Source: Candidatus Cloacimonadota bacterium
GTDB lineage: Bacteria > Cloacimonadota > Cloacimonadia > Cloacimonadales > TCS61
Length of the DNA: 35,301 bases
Assembly (NCBI GenBank): GCA_027064945.1
Contig: JAMOPB010000418.1
Coordinates: 1 to 35,301, forward strand
Direction of reading: 5' to 3'
The notes beneath the pieces are model-generated. The model was not told the origin of the DNA. It saw only the letters and a list, made by a program, of their open reading frames with translations, and made no database searches. Within the stretch, counting starts at the first letter, position 1, and every line of letters begins with the position of its first letter. The translations under genes and the position numbers were made by a program. Of the stretch, positions 15,041-22,588 are shown one piece after another.

Positions 15041-15058
15041 ATATTAAGGAAGATGAAG

Positions 15059-15976
15059 ATGAAAAAAATTATAATATTGATGGGTGGTTTTTCAGAAGAA
15101 AGAGAAGTTTCTTTAGTTACCGGTGAGCAAATTGCAAAAGAGCTAGAAAACATTTATCAGATTAAGAAAATTGATCCGAAAGAGTATAGCTCTTATCATC
15201 TTATGATGGAAGAAATTATAGAATTTGATCCAATGTTGGTTTTTATAGCTCTGCACGGAGCGGAAGGAGAAGATGGCAGAATTCAAGCATATTTATCATT
15301 GCATAATATAAAATTCACCGGTTCAGGATACAGAGCAAGTGCGCTTGCAATGGATAAAATAATCAGTTCTAAAATTGCCAAAAGTGTGGATGTGCCTGTA
15401 GCTAATAAAATTATATATGAAAAAAGTCACACGATAGATAAAGAAATAGCTTGCCAATTAGGTTTCCCTTTGGTAATCAAGCCAAATGAATCAGGTTCAT
15501 CTTTTGGAATATCAATTATTCACCATGAAAATGATATTGAAAATGCTATTGAGTTTGCTTTCAAATATAGTGATAAAATTATATGTGAACAATTTATTCC
15601 CGGAAGAGAATTAACTGTTACAATCATAGATAATGTTGCGTATCCTGTGGTAGAAGTAAAACCAAAATCCGGTTGGTATGATTATCAAAACAAATACACT
15701 AAAGGAAATACGATTTATGAAGTCCCTGCCAAACTTAGTGTAACGGAGGAGAAGGTTATTAAAGAATATGCTTTGAAAATATATAAAGCATTTGGATGCG
15801 AAATTTATTCAAGAGTAGATTTTCGTTATAATGGAGAAGAATTTTATTTTTTAGAAGTTAACACATTGCCGGGAATGACAGCCCTTAGCCTTACGCCTAT
15901 GGCTGCGAAAGAAGCAGGAATTTCTTTTGGTGATTTATTGAAAAAAATCATCGATTTGTCTATACTTAGATGCTAA
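15059..15976 (+). CDS. ddl: D-alanine--D-alanine ligase
   Basis: MGGFSEEREVSLVTG, ATP-grasp VIKPNESGSSFGI, FLEVNTLPGMT. SD AAGGA suits ATG 15059 better than ATG 15053. Confidence 0.95.
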   Translation: MKKIIILMGGFSEEREVSLVTGEQIAKELENIYQIKKIDPKEYSSYHLMMEEIIEFDPMLVFIALHGAEGEDGRIQAYLSLHNIKFTGSGYRASALAMDKIISSKIAKSVDVPVANKIIYEKSHTIDKEIACQLGFPLVIKPNESGSSFGISIIHHENDIENAIEFAFKYSDKIICEQFIPGRELTVTIIDNVAYPVVEVKPKSGWYDYQNKYTKGNTIYEVPAKLSVTEEKVIKEYALKIYKAFGCEIYSRVDFRYNGEEFYFLEVNTLPGMTALSLTPMAAKEAGISFGDLLKKIIDLSILRC

Positions 15977-15989
15977 ACTAGGAGGATTT

Positions 15990-17084
15990 ATGAAGAATTT
16001 GTTTTTTATTTTTTTTGTGATAATGTCAGCATTTTGTTTTGCTGATATTGGAGATATTAGTGTTGTGCCGACATCAGGGCTTGTCTATAATAATATTGGT
16101 GCTAGTGCTTTTAATCTTGATGATCCGAATCAACAGCCGATTTTTTTTACAAGTATGATTTTCAATAATACTGATTCAGAAATTGAAAACTATAAATTGG
16201 AAATTTCGATGTATTGGCGTGATCAAATTGTAATTGAATCAATTACCGTAAGACCTAAACCGGGTTCTAGCTGGCAAGTTTTAGAACCAAATTCAAACCA
16301 GGTTTTAACTAATAGAGATATTATTGTAAACAATTCAAATGATTTTGTTGCGGAAACCGATTTGGATTTTGAAGAAATCAGAAGTAATGTTTCCGAATTT
16401 GATGATATTTTCCGAAAAACAGGCTTGATGCCGGATGGGGAGTATCGTTGGGATGTTCAATTTTTCGATGAAAATAATAATCCTCTTTCAAATCTCGTAT
16501 CATTTTCTTATATAATTGAAACTCCAATTGATATAATGCTTACAACTCCCGGCAGTCCGATTGGAAATGAAGTTTATTTTGCTTTAAGTAATCGTCCAAC
16601 TTTTGTTTGGTATTCAAATTTGAATAATTATACTCTAACAGTTTATGAAGTGGATGATGTTGTGGAAAATCCGGAAGATATTCTCACTAACAATCCAATT
16701 ATTGAAATTTCCGATATAGAAGCTAATTCTCTTACCTTTCCGGAGGAGTATGCAAGTTTGGAAGGTGGGAAAACTTATGCTTGGCGAGTGCAAGCAGAAA
16801 CGTTTGCGCCAGCAGGATTTTCTTCAGAGACCAAATATAGTAAATTTTATCTATTCAAAATAATGACAGATTCTGAAGAAGTAGCTGCTCAACAGCAATT
16901 AATTAATTTTATCCAACAATTAAATATTCCCCAAGCACAAGAATTAATAGATCTTTTCAATGCCGGCTATGCTCTGGATGAGATCAATTTTCAGGGGAGC
17001 AGTGTTTCCGCTGAAGATTTAATGGATATTCTTAATCAAATTCAACAAGGAACTCTTCGCGTAAAAAGCGTTAGAGTGGACTAA
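15990..17084 (+). CDS. Secreted protein with FN3-like beta domain, function unknown
   Basis: Signal peptide (MKNLFFIFFVIMSAFCFA), FN3-like segments (NRPTFVWYSNLNNYTLTVYEV...GGKTYAWRVQAET), Gln-rich helical C-terminus. Confidence 0.6.
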   Translation: MKNLFFIFFVIMSAFCFADIGDISVVPTSGLVYNNIGASAFNLDDPNQQPIFFTSMIFNNTDSEIENYKLEISMYWRDQIVIESITVRPKPGSSWQVLEPNSNQVLTNRDIIVNNSNDFVAETDLDFEEIRSNVSEFDDIFRKTGLMPDGEYRWDVQFFDENNNPLSNLVSFSYIIETPIDIMLTTPGSPIGNEVYFALSNRPTFVWYSNLNNYTLTVYEVDDVVENPEDILTNNPIIEISDIEANSLTFPEEYASLEGGKTYAWRVQAETFAPAGFSSETKYSKFYLFKIMTDSEEVAAQQQLINFIQQLNIPQAQELIDLFNAGYALDEINFQGSSVSAEDLMDILNQIQQGTLRVKSVRVD

Positions 17085-17093
17085 GGGGGCAAT

Positions 17094-17750
17094 ATGAAAA
17101 AGATTTTATTATCCTTAATTGTATTACTACTATTTTGCATAAATTTGAGTGCGTCAGTTGCAATTACTTTAAAAGCGGTTGGAGATGTTTCTTTAATTAG
17201 AGAAGAAAACGTTTCTAAAGCGGAAAATGGGACTGAATTAGAAAATAATGATCAACTTGAGACAAAGAAAAATTCCTATGCAGCAGTGAAATTTGTAGAT
17301 GGAAGCTCTGTAATAAAAGTTTTCCCAAATTCTGTTTTAACTATTAATGCAGAAGAGGGAGAAGATAAGAAATTAAATAAAAAAACTAATCTGAAAGTTG
17401 GGGAATTGTGGGCAAAAGTAACAAAAAAAACAGGTGGATTTGTAATTGATACGCCTACTACAGTAGTTTCCGTAAAAGGAACAAGCTTTAATGTTGATGT
17501 TGATGAAAATGGAATTACTGTTGTTAATACTTTTGAAGGCAGTGTAGAAATGAAAAATAAAAAAGATGGGAAATCTGCAATTATTGGTGCCGGAAAACAC
17601 GGAAGATCTAATGGTAGTGGTGATATTGAAGTATTAGATGGGAATACAACTCAAGAAGAGAAAAATGTCGATCCGGAAGTAAAAATCTTAGAAATCGAAT
17701 TAGAAAATTCCGAAGGTAATTCAAAAATAATAAAAATAGAGTTTGAGTAG
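17094..17750 (+). CDS. FecR-domain protein, secreted/periplasmic
   Basis: Signal peptide, then a FecR-type pattern: NDQLETKKNSYAAVKFVDGSSVIKVFPNSVLTI...LKVGELWAKVTKKTGGFVIDTPTTVVSVKGTSFNVDVDENGITVVNTFEGSVEM. Confidence 0.85.
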   Translation: MKKILLSLIVLLLFCINLSASVAITLKAVGDVSLIREENVSKAENGTELENNDQLETKKNSYAAVKFVDGSSVIKVFPNSVLTINAEEGEDKKLNKKTNLKVGELWAKVTKKTGGFVIDTPTTVVSVKGTSFNVDVDENGITVVNTFEGSVEMKNKKDGKSAIIGAGKHGRSNGSGDIEVLDGNTTQEEKNVDPEVKILEIELENSEGNSKIIKIEFE

Positions 17751-17758
17751 GAGGTATT

Positions 17759-20110
17759 ATGAAAACTTTAATTATGTCATTTTTACTCTGCTCAATTACT
17801 TTTGCTTTTGCAGTAAATCTTTCCGTCGAATTACCGGAAGTTTATGAAAATAACTCCGAACTGATTTTACGAGTGGATGAAGGATTTAATGATATAGAAA
17901 AAGCAACTTTATATTTCAGAGCAGATGATGAAGAAAGCTATATTTCATTGGATATGCAAAAAGGATTAGTTTCAGAACCAATATACACTGTTTCAATTCC
18001 GTCAAATTACTCATTTGATTCTGCAGTTGAATTGTATTTTGAAGCATTAACAGAAAATGGACAGAAAATTACATATCCACAAATAAATCCTCAATTAAAT
18101 CCGCTTAGATTAATAGTGGCAAATTCTGATACAATCTCTGAGAGTATTATTTTGCTTTCACCGGATGTGAATTTTCCAATCAACGCTGAAGAATTGATTA
18201 TTGCATTTTCCTATTTTTCTATTCAAAACGATATTAAAGCTAATTCAATAAAAATATTTTTTGATGGGAAAGATTATTCCTCTAAAGCAAAAATAACAAA
18301 AAATATGGCTATATTAAAGCTTCCAACTCCTAAAGCGGGAAAGCATACATTTAAAATGAAAGCAGAATCTGTAATGGGAAATAAGATTAGTTCAAAAGAT
18401 TTTTCCTTTGATCAAAACAAATCTGCAAAAATCATTCCTTTCAATATCGACGGAAGTTTATCTGCTTACGGAAAATACGAATCAAATTCAGAAACAGATA
18501 ATTATAATGATGCAAATATGCGTTTGATTCTAAATGTAAGGAAAAACTGGTTCAGGTTGAAATCAAAAACTTTTCTCACAAGCTTGGAAGATTCTAAGAA
18601 ACAACCTTTAAATAGGTTTAGTTTGGATATTGATGTACCTCATTTTGGAGTTAAAATTGGTGATTTCTCTCCAGATTTCGGTTCATTTGCAATAAATTCT
18701 GTAAATGTAAGAGGTGTTTTTTCTGAATTAAATTTTAAACTTTTCCGATTACAAGCACTGTATGGAGATAGCAAAAGAGCTATTCCCGGTAAACTTTATA
18801 CCACAAATAATTCCGAGACGGTGAATGGTGATTTATATGTAAATAATGATATAGCTTTTGCCAGGGAAACTACCGGAATTAAGATGGAGTTTGGTCACGA
18901 AAGATATTTTAATTATGGCTTGAGTTTTGTTAAAAATAAAGATAGAGTTTCCTCTTTGGATGAGGAGCAATATTTTGCACCGGATTCTACACTTTTGGTT
19001 CGTCCGAAAGATAATATTGTCATTGCAACAGATACAAGATTTGCTTTCAAAGACCAACGCATTGTTTTTGGTGCTGAAGCTGCAATGAGCTTGTATAATT
19101 CCAATATAATAGATGGTGCAATTTCTCAAGATTCTCTGGAAACTTTGGTAGGACAAGAAATTCCTATTGATCCTGAAGATTTGGAAGGTTTCTTTGTGGT
19201 AAATTCGAATATTGAACCTTTTGAACCGGGATTATCCAATCTATCCTACAAAGCATATATGAGAGTTTTCCTCTTAAGAAATTTGTTTAATATTAGTTAT
19301 TCATATGTTGGAAGTAGTTTTAATAATCTTTCAGTAGGGTATTTGGCAAAGGATTTGGCTACAATTTCAATTAGTGATAATATCGCATTATTCAACAATC
19401 GTTTTCTTTTGAATATTTCTTATAATATGAACAACAATAATCTATCGGATGATAAAGAATTTACTACAAACAACAATACTTTTTATGCTCAAGTTTATGT
19501 TCGCCCCACAAATGATTCTTTTTTTAATTTTAGTTATAATATCAATAATACCGATAATAGTTCTGATACATTTGAGACCAGAACATCGGTTTATTCAATA
19601 GGAATGGGCTATAATGTGAAACAGATAGATTATGCACCAACAAAGTTTAGTGTAAATTTCTCAAATTCTGTAAACGAAGATTTATTGGGGAATACTTACG
19701 ATTTTCAGAAAAATGTGATTACAATTTCTGCCAATAGTAAATATCGAGATTTTCCGCTAAAATCTAAAATTGGTTATTCTGTAGCATTGGATGAAAACAA
19801 GCGAGTTTCTTTTGATGATTCATATTGTGAAATTGAAGAGTTGGATGATAGTAGCTATCATTCTGTTTTTGTTAATACAAGTTATTTGTTTAATGAGAAA
19901 ATTGAACCGATTGCAAAATTTAGATTCTCAGTTTCATCAGGAGATTTTGAATATTCTTCTCAAAATGTAAATATTGGCACAAAATATAAATTTGATAGGA
20001 AAACGGATTTATATGCCGGATTAGGCTTTGCGAATTATAATTATCCTAATTTGGATGAGAATGATAATAGCGAATTAGAGCTTTCAATTAACTTAAAAAG
20101 AAGATTCTAA
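17759..20110 (+). CDS. Putative outer-membrane beta-barrel protein (783 aa)
   Basis: Signal peptide; N-terminal beta-sandwich-like region; long C-terminal stretch of alternating aromatic/hydrophobic strands ending in Phe (NLKRRF). Confidence 0.65.
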   Translation: MKTLIMSFLLCSITFAFAVNLSVELPEVYENNSELILRVDEGFNDIEKATLYFRADDEESYISLDMQKGLVSEPIYTVSIPSNYSFDSAVELYFEALTENGQKITYPQINPQLNPLRLIVANSDTISESIILLSPDVNFPINAEELIIAFSYFSIQNDIKANSIKIFFDGKDYSSKAKITKNMAILKLPTPKAGKHTFKMKAESVMGNKISSKDFSFDQNKSAKIIPFNIDGSLSAYGKYESNSETDNYNDANMRLILNVRKNWFRLKSKTFLTSLEDSKKQPLNRFSLDIDVPHFGVKIGDFSPDFGSFAINSVNVRGVFSELNFKLFRLQALYGDSKRAIPGKLYTTNNSETVNGDLYVNNDIAFARETTGIKMEFGHERYFNYGLSFVKNKDRVSSLDEEQYFAPDSTLLVRPKDNIVIATDTRFAFKDQRIVFGAEAAMSLYNSNIIDGAISQDSLETLVGQEIPIDPEDLEGFFVVNSNIEPFEPGLSNLSYKAYMRVFLLRNLFNISYSYVGSSFNNLSVGYLAKDLATISISDNIALFNNRFLLNISYNMNNNNLSDDKEFTTNNNTFYAQVYVRPTNDSFFNFSYNINNTDNSSDTFETRTSVYSIGMGYNVKQIDYAPTKFSVNFSNSVNEDLLGNTYDFQKNVITISANSKYRDFPLKSKIGYSVALDENKRVSFDDSYCEIEELDDSSYHSVFVNTSYLFNEKIEPIAKFRFSVSSGDFEYSSQNVNIGTKYKFDRKTDLYAGLGFANYNYPNLDENDNSELELSINLKRRF

Positions 20111-20128
20111 CCTAAAAAAAACGTACTT

Positions 20129-20171
20129 ATAGGAAGGGCGAAATTTGGTCCTTCCTATTTAGTATTAGGAA
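20129..20171 (+). promoter_or_regulatory. Intercistronic hairpin overlapping a possible SD-sequestering alternative helix
   Basis: ATAGGAAGG (20129-20137) pairs with CCTTCCTAT (20150-20158); TTCCTA (20152-20157) is also complementary to TAGGAA (20166-20171) just upstream of ATG 20179. Confidence 0.4.
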
Positions 20172-20178
20172 AAAATAA

Positions 20179-22041
20179 ATGAAAAGAATTAAATACTTTA
20201 TACCTGCAATCATTTTTGTTATTTTACAGTTGATTTTTGTTAGTAATTATTGGACAGGTCTGGAATTAAAAGCCAAAGATTTGCTTTTTCAGATTCGGGG
20301 AGAAATAAAAACTTCAGGCAATGTTGTAATTGTAAATATTGGCGATGACACTTTTAATTCACTGGGAATTCAATGGCCTTTTCCAAGGGAATATCATGCA
20401 CGAGTAATAGATAATCTTGAGCGAGCAGGTGCTGCAAAAATTATTTTTGATATAGAATTTGTTGAAGAATCAAATGCAAAATCAGATTCTATCTTAGCAT
20501 CCACAATAGCCAAATATGATAATATCACTTTAGCCGGAAAAGTAATAACTCAGATTACGGGAAAAACAAAAAAAACTCAAGTTTTAGCACCAATATCTAG
20601 TTTGCTTAGAGCAAATGCAAACTGGGGAACGGTAAACATCTCAGCTGATAACGATGGTTTTGTTAGGGAATATGAATTATTTCAAAAGATTGGGAAAACA
20701 AATAAATATTCTTTAGGAGCAATTGCAGTAGCTAGTTTCAAAAATAGAGATAACTACTTGGAAGATATTATTAATGGAGAAAAATATCTACAAATTTCCG
20801 ATTATCTAATTCCTAAAAAAAGAAACAAGACAGCGCTGATAAATTATTACGGACCAGCTAGAACATTTCCTTACTACGAATATGCGGATGTTTTAGATTC
20901 AGAGGATTTTGATATACCTTTTTTAGATTTAGATTCTTTTAATGATTTAATGAATAAAGGAGTTTTTAAAGATAAAATCGTTATAGTTGGTGTCTCTGCC
21001 GTCGAATTTCACGATTCACATCCCACTCCTTTCTTTTCAGAAAATAGAGCACTAACTCCCGGAGTAGAAATTCATGCTACTTTTATAGATAACGTTTTAA
21101 TGAGAGAACACTTATCGGAATTTCCTTATATCAAGTTAATATTTATTTTTCTATTTCTAACTTTTATTCTCTTTTTGATTAACATAAATATCAGACCAAC
21201 AATCTCAATTATTTATAATTCATTATTATTTTTTTCTTACTTTGGCGTTGTGTTTTATTTATTTAATACGGAGAATATGTTATTGCCGGTTTTGGAAATT
21301 CCCGCAACAATTATAGTAGTGTATGTTATAGGATTAGTTTTCCAATATATTAAATCTACTAAAGAGAAATTTTTTATAAAAAAAGCTTTCGGTAGATATA
21401 TTGCACCATCTTTGGTGGAAGAATTGATAAAAGATCCCAAAAAATTAGAATATGGTGGAAGCCTTAAAAATATTTCTGTATTATATTCTGATATTGTATC
21501 TTTCACATCCTATACCGAAACGCATTCACCTAAAGAAACAGTAGAATTGTTGCGAGAATATCTTACTGCAATGGTAGAAGTTGTTAAAGATAATAAAGGA
21601 ACATTAGATAAATTTGTGGGTGATGAAATTGTAGCCCTTTTCGGAGCTCCGGTAGAATTGGAAGATCATGCATATTGGGCGGCAAAAACTGCTTTGGAAA
21701 TGCGTTATAAGATGCAAGAATTACAAGAAAAATGGAAAAAAAATAATCGAGATCCATTCGAAATAGGAATTGGCATAAACTCCGGAGAAGTAACTGTGGG
21801 AAACCTTGGCTCTGAACAAATCTTTGATTACACTGCTATCGGAGATAATATGAATGCCGGAGCTAGAATTGAAGCTTTAACAAGAAATTATAAAACGGAG
21901 AATAATATTTTAATTAGCGAAAGTACCAAAATTCTGATTGAAGATAAATTTGAAGTGGAATATGTAGATGATGCAATGGTAAAAGGTAAGAGTAAGCCGA
22001 TAAAAGTTTATCAATTGCTTGCCATGAAAACACCAAACTAA
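20179..22041 (+). CDS. CHASE2-domain class III adenylyl cyclase
   Basis: CHASE2-like N-terminus (LELKAKDLLFQIRGE...VIVNIGDDTF...WPFPREYHARVIDNLERAGAAKIIFDIEF), TM helices, then a class III cyclase domain (LYSDIVSFT, DKFVGDEIVALFGAP, DYTAIGDNMNAGARIEALT). Confidence 0.92.
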   Translation: MKRIKYFIPAIIFVILQLIFVSNYWTGLELKAKDLLFQIRGEIKTSGNVVIVNIGDDTFNSLGIQWPFPREYHARVIDNLERAGAAKIIFDIEFVEESNAKSDSILASTIAKYDNITLAGKVITQITGKTKKTQVLAPISSLLRANANWGTVNISADNDGFVREYELFQKIGKTNKYSLGAIAVASFKNRDNYLEDIINGEKYLQISDYLIPKKRNKTALINYYGPARTFPYYEYADVLDSEDFDIPFLDLDSFNDLMNKGVFKDKIVIVGVSAVEFHDSHPTPFFSENRALTPGVEIHATFIDNVLMREHLSEFPYIKLIFIFLFLTFILFLININIRPTISIIYNSLLFFSYFGVVFYLFNTENMLLPVLEIPATIIVVYVIGLVFQYIKSTKEKFFIKKAFGRYIAPSLVEELIKDPKKLEYGGSLKNISVLYSDIVSFTSYTETHSPKETVELLREYLTAMVEVVKDNKGTLDKFVGDEIVALFGAPVELEDHAYWAAKTALEMRYKMQELQEKWKKNNRDPFEIGIGINSGEVTVGNLGSEQIFDYTAIGDNMNAGARIEALTRNYKTENNILISESTKILIEDKFEVEYVDDAMVKGKSKPIKVYQLLAMKTPN

Positions 22042-22069
22042 GAAAAGGTATTTTAAAAAAAATGGATTA

Positions 22070-22588
22070 GTGATGAAAAAAATTGTTTTAATTATTTTGT
22101 TTTTAACAAGCATATTTCTATGGGGTCAAGATAGATTTGTTTTGGCCGGAGGATATGGCACGGCGGATGTAGATTCTTTTGAGCACGAAATATATACTTT
22201 TCGCTTAGCAGGTAAAAATCAATCTACCTTTATTGGAATTGATTATGATTTACTTATATATGAAGATGATTTTATTGAATCAGAATATTCGGAAAAATTA
22301 ACAAACAGCAACATTCATGAAATCAGTTTCTTATTTGGAAAATCAATGCCATTTGGCAGATATTCTAGTGTGAATTTTAATGGTGGGATATCAGTTATTA
22401 GGAAACTTGAGAAATTTGAACAATCAAATTTACCGGAAAAAAAAAGAAAAGATTTTGGATTTCCAATTGATGCAACAATAGATATTGGTATTTTAAAAAA
22501 CTTGGGAGTAAGTTTCAGAGCTAAGAAAAGTTACAATGATATTGCACCATATTTTGGATATTCTGCAATGTTGCAATTCATTTTTTAA
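22070..22588 (+). CDS. Small putative outer-membrane beta-barrel protein, function unknown
   Basis: Signal peptide (KKIVLIILFLTSIFLWG); alternating beta-strand pattern; C-terminal LQFIF ending in Phe. Confidence 0.5.
   Translation: MMKKIVLIILFLTSIFLWGQDRFVLAGGYGTADVDSFEHEIYTFRLAGKNQSTFIGIDYDLLIYEDDFIESEYSEKLTNSNIHEISFLFGKSMPFGRYSSVNFNGGISVIRKLEKFEQSNLPEKKRKDFGFPIDATIDIGILKNLGVSFRAKKSYNDIAPYFGYSAMLQFIF

Follow-up and report, generated by a model that had tools for sequence, protein, structure and literature searches.

The window analysed here spans an entire 35.3-kb contig from a Cloacimonadota genome of 2.43 Mb (89% complete). It holds five consecutive open reading frames (ORFs) on the plus strand, separated by 9, 8, 68, and 28 nucleotides (nt), in line with the sequence-only reading, which had described five tightly packed same-strand genes. 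The first four encode an exported immunoglobulin (Ig)-like protein, a periplasmic FecR-domain protein, a large outer-membrane barrel, and a CHASE2-adenylyl cyclase; together they form a real, conserved unit at 15990–22041. The Ig-like, FecR, and barrel genes are called the trio below. The features, with lengths in amino acids (aa) and the evidence for each, are as follows.

15990–17084, plus strand: exported Ig-like protein, 364 aa, with a signal peptide ahead of two Ig-like beta domains and, C-terminally, a helical module (AlphaFold2 [AF2] model, fold matches, synteny)
17094–17750, plus strand: periplasmic FecR-domain protein, 218 aa, with the FecR domain at about 17250–17549 (PF04773, hhalign)
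17759–20110, plus strand: large outer-membrane protein, 783 aa, with a signal peptide, Ig-like residues 20–220, a 26-stranded barrel at residues 229–782, and a C-terminal Phe (AF2, Foldseek)
20129–20158, plus strand: terminator-like hairpin between the barrel and cyclase genes (folding z)
20179–22041, plus strand: CHASE2-adenylyl cyclase, 620 aa, with a transmembrane stretch, CHASE2 (about 20215–21147), further transmembrane stretches, and a class III cyclase domain (about 21463–22017) (Pfam, residues)
22070–22588, plus strand: short exported ORF, 172 aa, which may encode a small outer-membrane protein and is judged to lie outside the conserved module (synteny, Pfam negatives)
15053–15976, plus strand: D-Ala-D-Ala ligase (Ddl), a frequent upstream neighbour in Cloacimonadota, outside the core (synteny)

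Conservation of the four-gene unit

The order Ig, FecR, barrel, cyclase is kept in most Cloacimonadota loci long enough to judge, and the Ig-like gene lies immediately 5′ of FecR in nearly all orthologous loci of the phylum. A barrel profile matches in 94 of 125 Cloacimonadota genomes, an orthologous cyclase is found in 92, and 85 have both; in 67 of these 85 the barrel is followed, on the same contig and strand, by the cyclase, at a distance of no more than 300 nt in all but three. Among the 71 genomes that are at least 90% complete, 53 contain both genes, 4 the barrel only, 4 the cyclase only, and 10 neither (Fisher test, p = 1.7e-6, with no correction for shared ancestry). Once covariation with Ddl is removed, evolutionary distances still covary among the four module proteins (partial r 0.45–0.67). 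The trio itself is held together more tightly than it is linked to the cyclase.

The same arrangement occurs in loci titled Calditrichaceae, Ignavibacteriales, and Spirochaetes, found in a genome-collection scan with the CHASE2 region as the query. Profile searches detect the barrel in 38 of 40 Calditrichota genomes, 119 of 294 genomes of the Ignavibacteriales class, and 12 of 393 Spirochaetota genomes, seven of which have FecR and/or the cyclase adjoining. Mis-binning cannot account for one spirochaete match, whose contig is at least 2.8 Mb long. An Ig-gene match is missing in some Ignavibacteriales-class loci, several of which carry a longer FecR ORF, within the short stretches compared. The (Ig-)FecR-barrel-cyclase order recurs in at least four bacterial groups amid unrelated neighbours; as the flanking genes differ between phyla, only the module genes are constant. 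That the four genes keep one order both within the phylum and outside it argues that the arrangement exceeds chance. A search of open-licence papers found no description of the four-gene unit, which is real, widespread, and apparently undescribed. Separately, two records titled Armatimonadota/Armatimonadetes (L130, L175) contain a Cloacimonadota-type cyclase locus, with full synteny in L175; they are probably mislabelled metagenome-assembled genomes.

Upstream, the AroA and Ddl genes precede the module with gaps of 12–13 nt, and the gene cluster extends in that direction. In other families, two genes recur immediately 5′ of Ddl and the module, one for a single receiver domain and the other for a product of about 300 aa, at the place that AroA holds in the window's family (L142 3396–4701, L212, L214, L083 3223–4522).

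The conserved unit does not extend to the fifth gene. The 172-aa ORF has no syntenic homologue in any relative compared, being confined to the window's genome, and has no Pfam match even at an E-value of 10. It was therefore rejected as a part of the module, and of the five-gene unit first proposed, conservation in relatives holds for the Ig-like, FecR, barrel, and cyclase genes, whose order is kept across phyla. Strand alternation in this ORF is weak (z 1.3, versus 3.2 for the large barrel), but it may still encode a small outer-membrane protein. Of the two barrels proposed from the sequence, the 783-aa protein is supported by its AF2 model.

Products of the unit and the barrel-cyclase hairpin

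Signal-peptide-like N-termini are present on all four non-cyclase proteins of the five-ORF set. The AF2 model of the 783-aa protein, built on a 53-sequence alignment, has a mean predicted local distance difference test score (pLDDT) of 88.2 and a predicted template-modelling score (pTM) of 0.65. Ig-like domains (residues 20–220) are followed by 26 long strands (residues 229–782). Loops average 13 residues after odd strands and 4 residues after even strands in the model; this alternation of long and short loops is consistent with an outer-membrane barrel that has its two ends on the periplasmic side. Conservation in several of the outward loops equals or exceeds that of the strands. In the PDB, the barrel is matched best by Foldseek to one chain of the Mtr complex, chain B (E = 3.7e-11, TM-score 0.43–0.50), which we take to be the 26-stranded MtrB. 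The C-terminal Phe already noted from the sequence is invariant in 27 Cloacimonadota orthologues. The protein matches no Pfam family above cut-offs. An assignment as a TonB-dependent receptor was rejected, with no TonB-receptor, plug, or STN Pfam match in the 27 members.

In its AF2 model (mean pLDDT 88.8), the Ig-like protein has two beta domains followed by a helical C-terminal part. Its closest folds are tandem fibronectin type III (FnIII)/Ig proteins such as RbmA, at low TM-score; an Ig match in Pfam is sub-threshold only, and no sequence link to any solved structure was found. DUF928, which appears below threshold in 3 of 23 members, was not accepted.

The 218-aa protein contains a FecR domain (PF04773, E = 9.6e-15) and has no segment predicted to be cytoplasmic. 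The 620-aa protein matches CHASE2 (E = 3.5e-50) and the cyclase domain Guanylate_cyc (E = 1.3e-25). Its predicted topology comprises one N-terminal transmembrane stretch, a CHASE2 region of periplasmic size, further transmembrane stretches, and then the catalytic domain, which agrees with the membrane cyclase with a periplasm-facing CHASE2 domain read from the sequence. The metal-binding, substrate, and transition-state residues are all present (D438, K478, D482, T552, N559, and R563) and are retained together in 109 of 115 cyclase sequences. A class III cyclase with Lys and Thr where the base is recognised is expected to use ATP; the Lys and Thr found at these positions point to ATP here. A second CHASE2-cyclase paralogue of about 33% identity, with a neighbourhood of its own, occurs in many Cloacimonadota genomes (L094, L095; matches of about 720 aa).

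An 11-bp hairpin occupies positions 20129–20158 in the gap between the barrel and cyclase genes (folding z −5.3 for the gap). Among 29 loci with barrel-cyclase gaps of 40–140 nt, folding z is less than −2 in 21 and below −3 in 18; the other gaps within the unit have medians of 9 nt. The hairpins are conserved in position and divergent in sequence, some with a T run (the window; L126, L137–L191). We infer that the hairpin works as a partial terminator, or as a processing site, and so keeps the cyclase at a lower level than the trio.

Comparison with known FecR and CHASE2 systems

The only studied relative found is the NsrA-CyaK system, in which FecR and barrel are fused. On pSymB of the plant symbiont Sinorhizobium meliloti, the gene for a 1202-aa protein with FecR, tetratricopeptide repeat (TPR), and barrel regions overlaps a CHASE2-cyclase gene, presumably cyaK (L256, L258). 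We call the 1202-aa protein NsrA from its size and from the barrel limits given in PMC7529298. In S. meliloti, outer-membrane NsrA and its cognate inner-membrane CHASE2 cyclases are both required for the response to a plant signal, and the candidate ligand of the system is ribosomal protein uL2 (PMC7529298, PMC13001267).

NsrA-CyaK/CyaD and the window module share a barrel, a periplasmic FecR domain, and a CHASE2-adenylyl cyclase from adjacent genes, and in the window the cyclase is encoded directly downstream, as in the NsrA-CyaK type. Homology links the FecR protein of the window with the corresponding domain of the NsrA-like protein (hhalign E = 4e-11), and the window cyclase with the pSymB cyclase (E = 6e-66). 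NsrA, however, is one FecR-TPR-barrel chain, whereas the window has separate FecR and barrel proteins and an additional Ig-like protein, which has no counterpart in NsrA; no TPR was found in the window module proteins. Because the FecR and cyclase are homologous and the barrel is not detectably so, the window module is a split-gene counterpart with a different barrel, and the fusion in the NsrA-like protein supports FecR and barrel acting together. On present evidence, the module would not be placed in the NsrA family but appears to work like the NsrA system.

Two further observations concern the rhizobial loci. In the S. meliloti ml59 record, the cyclase gene that adjoins the NsrA-like gene falls into two frames (L256 2881–4829); in strain 2011 this cyclase gene is intact (L258 6103–8052). 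A gene annotated as DUF5706/'Pycsar system effector family', possibly a cyclic-nucleotide effector, lies divergently beside the NsrA-like gene in two rhizobia (L256 8568–9113; L260 1849–2388).

Several other systems combine some of the same parts. CHASE2-FecR clustering has been reported in Campylobacterota (PMC9239204). One known cluster, proposed as a single pathway, pairs a CHASE2 cyclase with a FecR-containing envelope protein; going by its published description, it differs in having a phosphodiesterase and a TPR gene, with no split barrel or Ig gene described. The BiofilmReg operon of Burkholderia and relatives encodes a LysM-FecR protein and a CHASE2 histidine kinase (PMC5192318). As in the window, a FecR-domain periplasmic protein accompanies a CHASE2 receptor; in contrast, the output is a histidine kinase with a response regulator, and the operon contains no barrel. 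At the Magnetospirillum MtxA locus, the gene for an exported TPR/Ig-like protein precedes a CHASE2-cyclase gene, an order of Ig-type and cyclase genes shared with the window, but the text of PMC4439547 mentions no FecR or outer-membrane barrel. A weak Pfam link exists, with MtxA_IG-like matched in 2 of 27 barrel members.

A candidate route from the cell surface to cAMP

We consider it probable, at roughly two in three, that the four genes encode a trans-envelope module that reports surface events inward as cyclic AMP (cAMP), with the contacts, ligand, and output inferred. The 26-stranded barrel would bind a ligand or register the state of the outer membrane, its outward loops including conserved ones. 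The signal would then travel via the periplasmic Ig-like domains of the barrel and the exported Ig-like and FecR proteins, and FecR, or a FecR/Ig complex, would touch the periplasmic CHASE2 domain. FecR would thus be a periplasmic relay that serves the cyclase and not a sigma factor. From its sequence, the class III catalytic domain is predicted to produce cAMP, which may act on a CRP-type or other protein that binds cyclic nucleoside monophosphates (cNMPs) and is encoded elsewhere; cNMP-binding domains are found in 123 of 125 Cloacimonadota genomes. The intergenic hairpin would lower expression of the cyclase relative to the three envelope proteins. Of the five-gene trans-envelope sensor originally put forward, four genes are thus retained on the strength of conservation, co-occurrence, the structure of the large barrel, and the catalytic residues, and the experimentally studied NsrA-CyaK system lends support to the reasoning; the fifth gene does not belong to the module.

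A number of observations weigh against this interpretation. Four high-quality genomes (G038, G074, G075, G078) have the trio without the cyclase, four genomes (G003, G012, G018, G121) have the cyclase without a detected barrel, and the trio is unlinked from the cyclase in family f13 and in G036 and G044. In two loci, L141 and L191, a cyclase beside a trio has damaged catalytic motifs. No homology between the window barrel and that of NsrA is detectable (hhalign probability 0.2%), remoter homology lying beyond the reach of the test. In the window's own genome, the only cNMP-binding domain is sub-threshold and lies behind a receiver domain.

The state of the cyclase where the barrel is missing also bears on the link between them. 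Of the four cyclases examined whose genomes have no detected barrel, two have lost the metal-binding Asp, against none of 38 others (p = 0.007). These losses, to Asn and Ser, occur only in G018 and G002 (L079, L115), both without a detected barrel. Decay of cyclases only where the barrel is gone is suggestive and not more than that, because the damaged cyclases of L141 and L191 stand next to a trio.

The alternative that survives best, although we regard it as unlikely, is that the trio forms a complex of the outer membrane with a role of its own, in structure, adhesion, or transport, and that the CHASE2 cyclase, merely co-transcribed so that both are produced together, senses something else in the periplasm. 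That a few genomes keep the trio but lack the cyclase, and that the two lie apart in family f13, would fit such an arrangement, as would the hairpin that stands between them, the resemblance of the Ig/FnIII-type domains to matrix proteins such as RbmA, and that of the barrel to the barrel of the Mtr conduit complex. Yet the same genes stay linked in several phyla despite different neighbours, CHASE2-FecR pairing recurs in other systems (PMC5192318, PMC9239204), and the fused NsrA is required for cyclase-dependent signalling (PMC7529298).

Most Cloacimonadota have Ddl beside the module, and Ddl remains next to the cyclase at loci from which the trio is missing or where it is located elsewhere (L072, L078, L152–L164). 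This would be expected if the cyclase were functionally tied to cell-wall synthesis (the Ddl, AroA region) and reported the state of the cell wall, with the trio as a passenger. Such a role is improbable: Ddl is not beside the module in the Calditrichota, Ignavibacteriales-class, and Spirochaetota loci examined, so the trio-cyclase linkage is the wider one.

FecIRA ferric-citrate signalling also has a FecR domain working with an outer-membrane barrel, but a FecIRA-like system with its sigma factor encoded elsewhere and the cyclase as a second output is very unlikely: as the sequence-only reading had remarked, no sigma-factor gene is seen among the window ORFs, nor as a recurring neighbour (by inspection, with no dedicated search), the 27 barrel members lack TonB-dependent receptor domains, and the FecR protein has no predicted cytoplasmic segment.

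Returning to the four-gene cAMP module, we see the chances as evenly balanced that separate FecR and Ig-like periplasmic proteins couple a CHASE2 cyclase to a 26-stranded barrel whose sequence is unrelated to that of NsrA, in an undescribed four-protein surface-to-cAMP relay that is widespread in Cloacimonadota, Calditrichota, and the Ignavibacteriales class. If so, FecR, barrel, and CHASE2 would have been assembled more than once with different barrels, and FecR would be a general periplasmic input to CHASE2 receptors. The factors recognised by CHASE2 domains are not known (PMC5192318). The conserved four-gene set defines a candidate input path that runs from the barrel through FecR to CHASE2, and it points to FecR domains as partners of receptors besides those of sigma-factor systems. 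It also provides a candidate function for a barrel family and an Ig-like family that, in the window, have no Pfam match above cut-offs.

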